A stretch of 64,000 nucleotides of DNA from the NCBI GenBank assembly GCA_029263415.1, contig JAJCXN010000037.1:1-64000 (forward strand). The letters are read 5' to 3'. Source of the DNA: Acidobacteriota bacterium (lineage in GTDB: Bacteria > Acidobacteriota > Thermoanaerobaculia > Multivoradales > Multivoraceae). The position numbers and the translations under genes are program-made. Position 1 is the first letter of the stretch. Each line of letters starts with the position of its first letter. Below, piece after piece: positions 3,866-5,859 of this stretch. The notes under the pieces were generated by a model. That model saw only the letters and a program-made list of their open reading frames with translations, was not told the origin of the DNA and made no database searches.

Positions 3866-4330
3866 ATGATGCTGGCGCCAATGAACGCGAAGTACCCAAC
3901 GATAATTCCGACGCACCCATCGACGTCCCCGACGCGGGGTCTTGCGCTATTCGCTTTGGCTCTCTTCCCCTTGCTGCTTGCTTGCAGTGATCGGACCCTT
4001 CAGCGTGAGGGCGAATCAGAACTCGAATGGGGCGAGCGATTGTTCGCTCATCTTGGCTGCGTCACTTGCCACTCGCTGAGCGGCGCACAGCTGCAAGGGC
4101 CAGTGATGGGGCAGGCATGGCTGGGGGAGGTTCCGCTACGGACTGGTGAGACAGCCATCTTGGACGAAGACTTCGTGCGCCGCTCGATCTCCGACCCTAC
4201 CGCTGCCGTACGCCAGGACTTCTTTCCGGTCATGGTGCCCTATCTCGATCTCACCGAGGGCCAAGTCGATGCGCTGGTCGCCTTCTGGCGCGAGAAATCG
4301 GTCGTCGCAGAGGGTGCCGATAACGAGTGA
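3866..4330 (+). CDS. cytochrome c lipoprotein
   Basis: Small periplasmic mono-haem c-type cytochrome tethered as a lipoprotein. An N-terminal hydrophobic stretch ends in LLLAC with the acylated Cys at residue 40. The haem-attachment motif CVTCH is at 65-69, and a Met in PVMVPY (Met123) is the likely distal ligand. The arrangement (CxxCH, then a proline-flanked Met followed by a short helix LTEGQVDALVAFW) resembles the cytochrome c domain fused to subunit II of caa3-type oxidases, but no oxidase genes lie nearby. Likely an electron carrier. No clear ribosome-binding site marks the start; ATG 3866, 3869 or 3881 are all possible. Confidence 0.85.
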   Translation: MMLAPMNAKYPTIIPTHPSTSPTRGLALFALALFPLLLACSDRTLQREGESELEWGERLFAHLGCVTCHSLSGAQLQGPVMGQAWLGEVPLRTGETAILDEDFVRRSISDPTAAVRQDFFPVMVPYLDLTEGQVDALVAFWREKSVVAEGADNE

Positions 4331-4472
4331 GTGGGTGCGAGTGCGTTGATCAGCCGTTTGGCGCTTAGCGATCGCGCAGGGCCTCTTGGGTTAGAGCCTT
4401 GGCCATCGACCGAGGTCTGGCGGCGTCAGCTCTTGTTGGCCGTCGCCCCCGCTTCACTCCACGATCGTGCGT

Positions 4473-4700
4473 CTAGCGGAGGGCGGCGATTGAGGCGAGG
4501 ATCTCTTTCGCTTCAGGGTAGCGACCGGTTTGATGCTTGGAGAACACCAGTAAGTCACCGACTGTGACGTCAAAGACACCGCCGCCACCGCGAATCAGCT
4601 TGATCTCCGCGTTTGGGTGTTGTTCTTGAATCTGGGCCTCCAAACTGGAGGCGCGGGGCAGGTAGTTTCAAGCTCCGCAGTAGTCGATCAAGATCTTCAT
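4473..4700 (-). CDS. selW: SelW/Rdx-family selenoprotein (in-frame UGA = Sec)
   Basis: A 75-residue SelW-like thioredoxin-fold protein missed by ordinary ORF calling because codon 11 is TGA (4670-4668). Reading through TGA gives a CxxU redox motif, Cys8-Gly-Ala-Sec11, followed by NYLPRA. The C-terminal half is diagnostic of the Rdx family: GGGGVFDVTVGDLLVFSK, then GRYPEAKEI. The frame stays open to TAG 4475-4473, and 75 aa is the family length. ATG 4700 has a GGAG Shine-Dalgarno 7 nt upstream. A hairpin suited to bacterial SECIS function starts 15 nt after the UGA (listed separately). It lies 22 nt downstream of the racemase gene on the same strand, so it is probably co-transcribed. Rdx proteins are thought to be thiol/selenol oxidoreductases; the partner is unknown. 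The Sec reading is inferred; selA, selB, selC and selD are not in this window. Confidence 0.92.
4636..4652 (-). promoter_or_regulatory. bacterial SECIS-like stem-loop of selW
   Basis: On the minus strand a perfect 6-bp stem, GCCTCC/GGAGGC, closes a 5-nt loop, AGTTT. It begins 15 nt after the UGA, so the apical loop starts 22 nt downstream. This matches the known rules for bacterial SECIS elements: loop 16-37 nt from the UGA, short GC-rich upper stem, and a G within the first two loop bases (here position 2). The hairpin sits inside the coding sequence, as SelB-dependent decoding requires. Confidence 0.8.
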
Positions 4701-4722
4701 CTGTGGTCTCCGTGATGGGTCG

Positions 4723-5859
4723 CTAGATGGCGCCAGCGTTTTCGGCCGCACCGATTTCGTCAGAAGAAAAGCCCCAAGCGGTGAGCGCCTCTTGATTGTG
4801 CGCACCGGCTTTGGGCGGCCCTGACGATACCGCACCCGGCGTCCGAGAAAAGCGCGGCGCCGGTGCTGGTTGCTCGAGGCCATCGACTGCAACGAAGGTG
4901 TTGCGTTCCAGGTTGTGCGGGTGAGCCTTGGCTTCATCGAAGTCCAAGACCGGGGCGAAGCAGACGTCGGTGCCCTCCATGATCTCGCACCATTCATCTC
5001 GGGTCTTTGTGGCCATGACCTGGGCGAGCCGAGCTTTGAATTTGGGCCAGGCCTTGGGGTCCATTTGTTGGCTGGCGAGTTCTTCGTCGTCGGTCAGTTC
5101 GGTGAGTTCAAGCAACAATTTGTAGAACTGTGGTTCGATCGAACCGAGGGAGACGAATTTCTCGTCTGCGCAAGGATAGACATCGTAAAAGTGGGCGCCT
5201 GAATCTAGAAGGTTGCGGCCGCGTTGGTTGCTCCAGGAGCCAGCGGCGTTCATGCCAAAAATGGGCGTCATCAGTAGTGCCGAACCGTCGGTCATGGCAG
5301 CGTCGACGACCTGTCCTTGGCCCGAGCCCTTCGCTTCGAGCAGGGCGCACACCATACCGAAAGCGAGCAGCATGCCGCCGCCGCCGAAATCACCGACCAG
5401 ATTGAGAGGCGGCACCGGCGCTCCACCGTCGCGACCGATCGCGTGGAGGGCGCCGGAGAGGCTGATGTAGTTGATGTCGTGGCCTGCAGCCTTGGCCATC
5501 GAACCGGACTGGCCCCAGCCCGTCATGCGACCGAACACCAGCTTTGCGTTGCGCTCTTGGCAAACATCGGGGCCGAGACCTAGGCGTTCCATCACGCCCG
5601 GTCTGAAGCCCTCGATCAAGCCGTCTGCGTTTTCCACCAGGCGCAGCACTAGCTCGATGCCTTCTGGAGACTTAAGGTCGACCGCGATCGACTTGCGGCC
5701 GCGATTGAGGAAGTTGAACTTGCTGCCGGTGCCCGCCGCACTCTTGCGGTCGATGCGGATCACCTCTGCGCCTTGATCGGCGAGCATCATGGCGCAGAAG
5801 GGACCTGGGCCGATGCCAGCGATCTCGATGATCTTGAAACCTTGAAGTGGGCCGGACAT
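4723..5859 (-). CDS. alpha-methylacyl-CoA racemase (CaiB/BaiF CoA-transferase family III)
   Basis: Interconverts (R)- and (S)-2-methylacyl-CoA so that branched chains can enter beta-oxidation; cytoplasmic. The 378-aa length and residues fit the racemase subgroup. His127-Asp128 lie in [11 protein letters not shown] and Asp157 in VGDFGGGGM, matching the His126/Asp156 pair described for the mycobacterial racemase MCR. The frame is open further upstream, but ATG 5859 ([15 protein letters not shown]) is chosen: it matches the family N-terminus and has AGGAG 7 nt upstream. It lies 65 nt after the symporter gene on the same strand and is followed by selW. With the nearby AtuA-like and acyl-CoA dehydrogenase genes it suggests methyl-branched acyl-CoA degradation. 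Confidence 0.92.

Follow-up and report, generated by a model that had tools for sequence, protein, structure and literature searches.

Among the selenoprotein families of the Sargasso Sea, SelW-like was the most abundant, with 48 genes (PMC1088965), and together with SelD it was the most widespread in ocean sampling data (427 genes; PMC2398784); these and the other papers cited are quoted from their accessible portions. Cysteine homologues of the family exist (7 and 56 in these two ocean surveys), and a 2006 survey reported very few or none of them in organisms that use selenocysteine (Sec) (PMC1794560). The function of the bacterial SelW-like proteins was called unclear, and a redox role was proposed from their CxxU motif (PMC1088965). 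For the bacterial Sec insertion sequence (SECIS), the constraints given are a loop of 3-9 nucleotides (nt), a stem of 4-16 base pairs (bp), a G in the first two loop positions, a spacing of 16-37 nt and an energy of -7.5 or below (PMC13188914); neither SelW nor Rdx was found as a word in the accessible part of that paper. Here we describe a gene of this kind in a 64,000-nt stretch of an Acidobacteriota bacterium of the class Thermoanaerobaculia (contig JAJCXN010000037.1 of assembly GCA_029263415.1, positions 1 to 64,000; the window hereafter, and its bearer the host). Judging from the sequence analyses below, the gene almost certainly encodes a SelW-like (Rdx) selenoprotein in which UGA is read as Sec.

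The gene lies on the minus strand (4700-4473) as an ATG to TAG frame of 75 codons, with a single in-frame TGA as codon 11. Its product read with Sec has 75 residues that run from MKILIDYCGAUNYLPRA to GRYPEAKEILASIAALR, in full MKILIDYCGAUNYLPRASSLEAQIQEQHPNAEIKLIRGGGGVFDVTVGDLLVFSKHQTGRYPEAKEILASIAALR. The main features of the locus are:

4473..4700, minus strand: predicted SelW-like (Rdx) selenoprotein gene, 75 amino acids, Sec as residue 11, ATG at 4700, stop TAG at 4475-4473
4668..4670, minus strand: UGA predicted to be read as Sec, CGAU being the CxxU motif; UGA in 154/154 related frames reaching the site
4636..4652, minus strand: putative SECIS hairpin, 7-bp stem GCCUCCA/UGGAGGC, arms 4652-4646 and 4642-4636, loop GUU at 4645-4643

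In the table 11 list of open reading frames (ORFs), the sole entry in the frame of the gene is a 109-residue frame with another start that ends at TGA 4670-4668. An earlier description of the window, made from its letters and this list (the sequence-only reading), had claimed that conventional ORF calling stops at the UGA, and this was borne out; the frame, the coordinates and the 75-residue Rdx protein with CGAU that it had given agreed with the sequence and with the family profiles.

The family profile searches, run with Cys standing in for Sec, gave matches spanning the UGA to Pfam Rdx (1.9e-19, 70.1 bits, cut-off 22.6), to NCBIfam NF041051, the 'SelT/SelW/SelH family (seleno)protein' (90.3 bits, cut-off 88), and to TIGR02174 (58.4 bits, cut-off 34.2). 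Cys8 and residue 11 (CxxU) were invariant across an alignment of 34 sequences chosen from 149 distinct proteins, and the AlphaFold2 model based on these 34 sequences (a predicted structure; pLDDT 96.1, pTM 0.84) places both residues after the first strand and ahead of the first helix. The first fold match of the model in PDB was 2fa8, a SelW-related protein (TM 0.92, root-mean-square deviation 1.0), and a sequence search of PDB at E up to 1 returned 2ljk (C17orf37, that is MIEN1), 2fa8, 3dex, 2oka, 2ojl, 2obk, 2p0g and mouse SelW (2npb). Comparison with the Rdx/SelW families, which the sequence-only reading had proposed as a check, aligned the UGA column with the Cys of TGC-type Rdx genes. No relative of the gene was found in the viral sequence collection.

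The UGA was conserved in the related frames that reach the site. Rdx matches were present in 87 of the 98 genomes of the host's class (host included), and all 95 matches contained one TGA (one of them, in genome G022, is cut at a contig start and also holds a TAG; another, in G097, is below the Pfam cut-off). A scan of named genomes gave 59 Rdx loci, which according to their titles come from Gammaproteobacteria, Acidobacteria, Planctomycetota, Myxococcales, Deltaproteobacteria, Gemmatimonadetes, Chloroflexi, Acidimicrobiia and others. The related frames read numbered 155, window included; 154 reach the site, and TGA stands at CxxU in 154/154. The frame left out (L124, G022:C166:1-2700) is an Rdx gene cut at the contig start with an extra TAG in its first bases. 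The 155-frame set counts two places twice (the window as L022, and L052 as L055), and the distinct stretches after the TGA number 144. The protein is conserved on both sides of the UGA in the homologues, and there was no Cys form at CxxU among the 154 related frames, in agreement with the statement of PMC1794560 on the Cys homologues of the SelW-like family. Of 119 genomes drawn evenly from the phylum, 42 had Rdx, with 46 matches, 43 holding a TGA and 3 lacking it; the third TGA-less match starts only at profile position 11, close to the beginning of a contig, and was left out of the reading. Of the 28 loci of this draw that were read (5 being places already in the earlier set), 26 had UGA at CxxU; the SECIS place held at least 6 bp in 21 of them and no more than 3 in the other 5. 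The other two (L202 and L203), TGC-type Rdx genes of a more distant branch with the motif CTQC, had no pair at the SECIS place. Separately, nine genomes of the host's family, order and class (L168-L176) carry a second Rdx-type gene, likewise UGA-coded, in which CxSUG or CxTU replaces CxxUNY and the tail is longer; a search of the host up to E = 1 found no second copy of this kind.

The sequence after the UGA can form the hairpin GCCUCCA-GUU-UGGAGGC, with 22 nt between the UGA and the loop and -12.3 kcal/mol for the 43-nt stretch. It can alternatively be drawn with 6 bp and the loop AGUUU, the G being loop position 2 or 1 depending on whether the A-U pair is counted. Among the 144 distinct sequences, 106 had a stem of at least 6 bp with the G at the exact place, compared to 14.85 expected and a maximum of 26 in 300 synonymous recodings. 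Pairing across the family was 84% in register and fell to 23-53% when one arm was shifted by 1-3 nt, and cells changed on both sides numbered 85 in register versus 29-67 when slid. The pair +19/+29, in the middle of the 7-bp stem (bases 4649 and 4639), is G-C in most sequences (in 76 from GCC/GCG, Ala/Ala), U-A from TCC/GAG (Ser/Glu) in 9 sequences including that of the window, and broken, as TCC/GCG (Ser/Ala), in 8. Going from Ala/Ala to Ser/Glu takes a change on each side, with both amino acids replaced and the pair preserved. As a feature of the family the SECIS exceeds chance; the hairpin of the window taken alone does not. The 6-bp SECIS-like hairpin with G at loop position 2 and 22 nt of spacing, as claimed in the sequence-only reading, is present and fits the model; what makes it convincing is its conservation rather than the single hairpin.

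The genome of the host (G000; 6.89 Mb, 60 contigs, 99.2% complete, the window being bases 1-64000 of contig C37) was searched for the Sec machinery. A tRNA-Sec was found at C28:152-244 (71.1 bits, cut-off 47; ARAGORN tRNA-SeC, anticodon tca, that is UCA), and its fold has an acceptor of 8 bp and a T stem of 5 bp. Also found, and free of internal stops, were selB (329 bits, cut-off 242.25), selA (457.7 bits, cut-off 267.9) and selD (two pieces, 249.2 bits summed in frame, cut-off 125). In the 14 control genomes, the cut-offs of the tRNA-Sec, selB, selA and selD searches were passed by 5, 2, 1 and 2 genomes, respectively. The sequence-only reading had held that the host makes Sec and had named the absence of selA, selB or selC as evidence to the contrary; with tRNA-Sec, selA, selB and selD all found, the genome supports it as far as the machinery goes. 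A second host match to the tRNA-Sec model above the cut-off (49.3 bits) was rejected, being a tRNA-Ser according to ARAGORN. Two side observations concern these genes. At L019:220-2709, selD stands behind an N-terminal pyridine nucleotide-disulphide oxidoreductase domain in a single frame (TIGR03169 376.9, cut-off 310), which has no in-frame stop and hence no Sec in its protein. An identical short match to the selB model occurs at two contig starts (G000:C44:16-90 and G000:C45:16-90), probably a repeat at contig ends.

Searches for selB, selC and selD covered the host, and the class-wide search was that for selA, which was matched in 93 of the 98 genomes (89 above the cut-off) and in 49/49 genera. 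selA was also matched in each of the 11 genomes that had no Rdx match, in G064 by a partial match below the cut-off. In the host, one TGA was present in 3 of the 4 CMD/AhpD-type matches, in 8 of the 25 AhpC-TSA matches (of these 8, the GPx-like L201 is below the cut-off) and in 1 of the 7 formate-dehydrogenase-alpha matches (all 7 under the model cut-off), which gives 12 further TGA-holding genes (L177, L178, L179, L183, L184, L187, L194 and L197-L201). The TGA contexts were CPFU, CHYU and CHYU in the AhpD-type genes, and, in the remaining ones, WUPYC, WUPPC, WUGC, WUPYC, YUGC, WUAGC and GUIFC; KUGLT; and RIUH, positions which we take to be the redox sites of the AhpD-type, peroxiredoxin/thioredoxin-type, GPx-like and formate-dehydrogenase-like families. 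Ten of the 12 genes have a hairpin of at least 6 bp with G in the first two loop positions and in the permitted range, a count for which the chance expectation was not computed; the hairpin of L184 and L200 has only 4 bp. Including SelW, the four family searches thus give 13 predicted selenoproteins in the host. The selD search added no further TGA gene there, and PF07355 (glycine/proline reductase) had no match in the host and none in the controls either, so that it is uninformative.

For comparison, the 2006 survey listed 4 selenoproteins of 3 families for Acidobacteria (PMC1794560), and a single Acidobacteriota genome, with 3 selenoproteins, is listed in the 2025 deep-Sep paper (PMC12013277), in the portions of both that were accessible. 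The literature searched, which leaves most subscription journals outside, yielded no description of the class as selenoprotein-rich and none joining Thermoanaerobaculia with selenocysteine. On balance we favour the view that the host exemplifies a whole Acidobacteriota class (Thermoanaerobaculia) with near-universal Sec use, rich in selenoproteins, at least 13 of them predicted in the host.

The selenoprotein is supported by computation in its frame, its family, the Sec machinery of the host, the conservation of UGA and hairpin, and the predicted fold, and from these we infer the insertion of selenium. The SECIS hairpin right after the UGA would be bound by the SelB of the host, SelB would deliver Sec-tRNA-Sec, and the UGA would be decoded as selenocysteine, translation continuing to the TAG. 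The product would take the fold of a small thioredoxin, its CxxU pair of Cys8 and Sec11 immediately preceding the first helix, and would most likely exchange thiol and disulphide between a small thiol or thioredoxin-type partner and a target. We consider it likely that the protein is a selenol-based thiol-disulphide oxidoreductase, its redox activity and partners being suggested by the motif and the fold.

Several results weigh against this account, most of them concerning the hairpin. When the protein was kept and the codons redrawn, the window sequence obtained a stem of at least 7 bp with G at the same place in 4.7% of the recodings, at least 7 bp with G anywhere in the permitted range in 9.3%, and at least 6 bp anywhere in 37.5%; 10 of 200 dinucleotide shuffles folded equally well. 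Folding energy was only slightly low compared to synonymous recoding (mean z -0.52, n=144; control stretch -0.08; window -0.05), and this measure, taken over 45 nt, was weak and was superseded by the stem count at the fixed place. At that place the uninterrupted stem fell short of 5 bp in 33 of the 144 sequences. The true register could not be told from the slid ones by the number of pair types (16 versus 12 to 19). The SECIS counts are counts of sequences, not of independent events, and have no tree behind them. Rfam gave no family on the hairpin in 4300-4900, where three sub-threshold matches were to unrelated families. Differences downstream of the UGA are not concentrated at the third codon position (1070, 724 and 1010 for the three positions), so they provide no separate proof of coding. 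Regarding the machinery, five of the 98 genomes (G050, G058, G069, G070 and G071, assemblies in 440 to 870 contigs) have a UGA-type Rdx and no selA match, and the selD frame matches TIGR04369, 'fusion_not_SelD', with 421.1 bits, a score below the cut-off of 700, whereas the selD cut-off was passed (245.3).

If the UGA were a true stop, the locus would be a pseudogene or the short peptide its whole product, as the ending of the ordinary ORF at the TGA and the weakness of the window hairpin taken alone would allow. The same codon is TGA in 154/154 frames reaching the site, the protein is conserved on both sides of it, the genome holds the Sec machinery and the hairpin is conserved across the family, all of which make a true stop highly improbable. 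An altered code, with UGA read as an ordinary amino acid throughout the host, would leave the read-through frame as intact as it is and is even less credible: among the eight tRNA-like loci scanned, the sole UCA anticodon is that of tRNA-Sec; Rdx genes of the TGC type have their Cys in the column of the UGA; and no Pfam match crossed the TGA in ten long window frames with one TGA each (TGA positions were listed for 21 frames, 10 of which were scanned with Pfam). A single base change from TGC to TGA would be enough for a sequencing or assembly error, which the sequence-only reading had named as a refutation; the identical TGA in 154/154 related frames from many assemblies makes such an error very unlikely indeed, the least probable of these explanations.

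A selenoprotein with a role other than thiol-disulphide exchange, for instance selenium storage or a redox sensor, appears unlikely. The uncertainty about bacterial SelW-like function expressed in PMC1088965 and the poor conservation of the neighbouring gene beside the Rdx gene would fit such a role, but a CxxU set in a thioredoxin-like fold is usually the redox site, and PMC1088965 itself, in its accessible part, reads CxxU as redox. A UGA-coded SelW-like selenoprotein acting in thiol-disulphide exchange is the preferred explanation.

The immediate surroundings comprise two further features on the same strand:

4708..4711, minus strand: likely ribosome-binding site GGAG, 7 nt 5' of the ATG, read directly from the sequence
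4723..5859, minus strand: upstream gene, CaiB/BaiF-type CoA-transferase/racemase, 378 amino acids, its stop 22 nt before the selenoprotein gene

The upstream gene had been called a racemase in the sequence-only reading. A CaiB/BaiF-type CoA-transferase or racemase stands as the description, with all seven NCBIfam matches below their curated cut-offs. Neighbours were compared in 154 loci, with flanks of only about 1.5 to 3 kb: a 71% identical copy of the CaiB-type gene lies upstream of the Rdx gene in one relative (L052 and L055, a single contig), and weak CaiB-type matches (27-31% over 161-267 residues) in L079, L083, L094 and L107 do not directly adjoin the Rdx gene. The operon context was dropped as a clue to function because the CaiB-type neighbour is hardly kept beside the gene, its close copy occurring only in L052/L055 among the 154 loci. 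Behind the selenoprotein gene, a convergent 154-residue ORF on the plus strand (3866-4330) has a signal-like start and a CVTCH motif, which is presumably haem-binding, so that the ORF looks to us like a small cytochrome c.

The locus is a clean case of a gene lost by standard gene calling. The trail from it leads to a host seemingly reliant on selenium, with selA in 49/49 genera around it and a dozen more TGA-interrupted redox genes, and proteomes predicted with standard stop codons for such bacteria would be wrong at exactly these redox enzymes. The stem pair kept through the double amino-acid change from Ala/Ala to Ser/Glu indicates that an RNA signal within a coding region can pull on the protein sequence.

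Compared with the solved proteins of the SelW family (2fa8, 2obk, 2oka, 2ojl, 2p0g, 3dex, human MIEN1 2ljk and mouse SelW 2npb), the model is alike in fold (TM 0.74-0.94, the value for mouse SelW being 0.74), whereas the sequences differ, 24-32% of residues being identical to the window protein in the fold alignments. The hairpin of the window lies within the constraints of PMC13188914 for the bacterial SECIS consensus (the bSECISearch model), and no difference from it was seen in the accessible part of that description. With the bacterial SelW-like selenoproteins (PF10262, NF041051, TIGR02174) the window protein shares the CxxU, the length of about 75 residues and the SECIS-like hairpin just after the UGA; nothing was seen that would place it outside this family, and its SECIS stem has the rarer Ser/Glu version. 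The gene is an ordinary member of a long-known selenoprotein family, and it is the selenium use of its host that goes beyond the ordinary.
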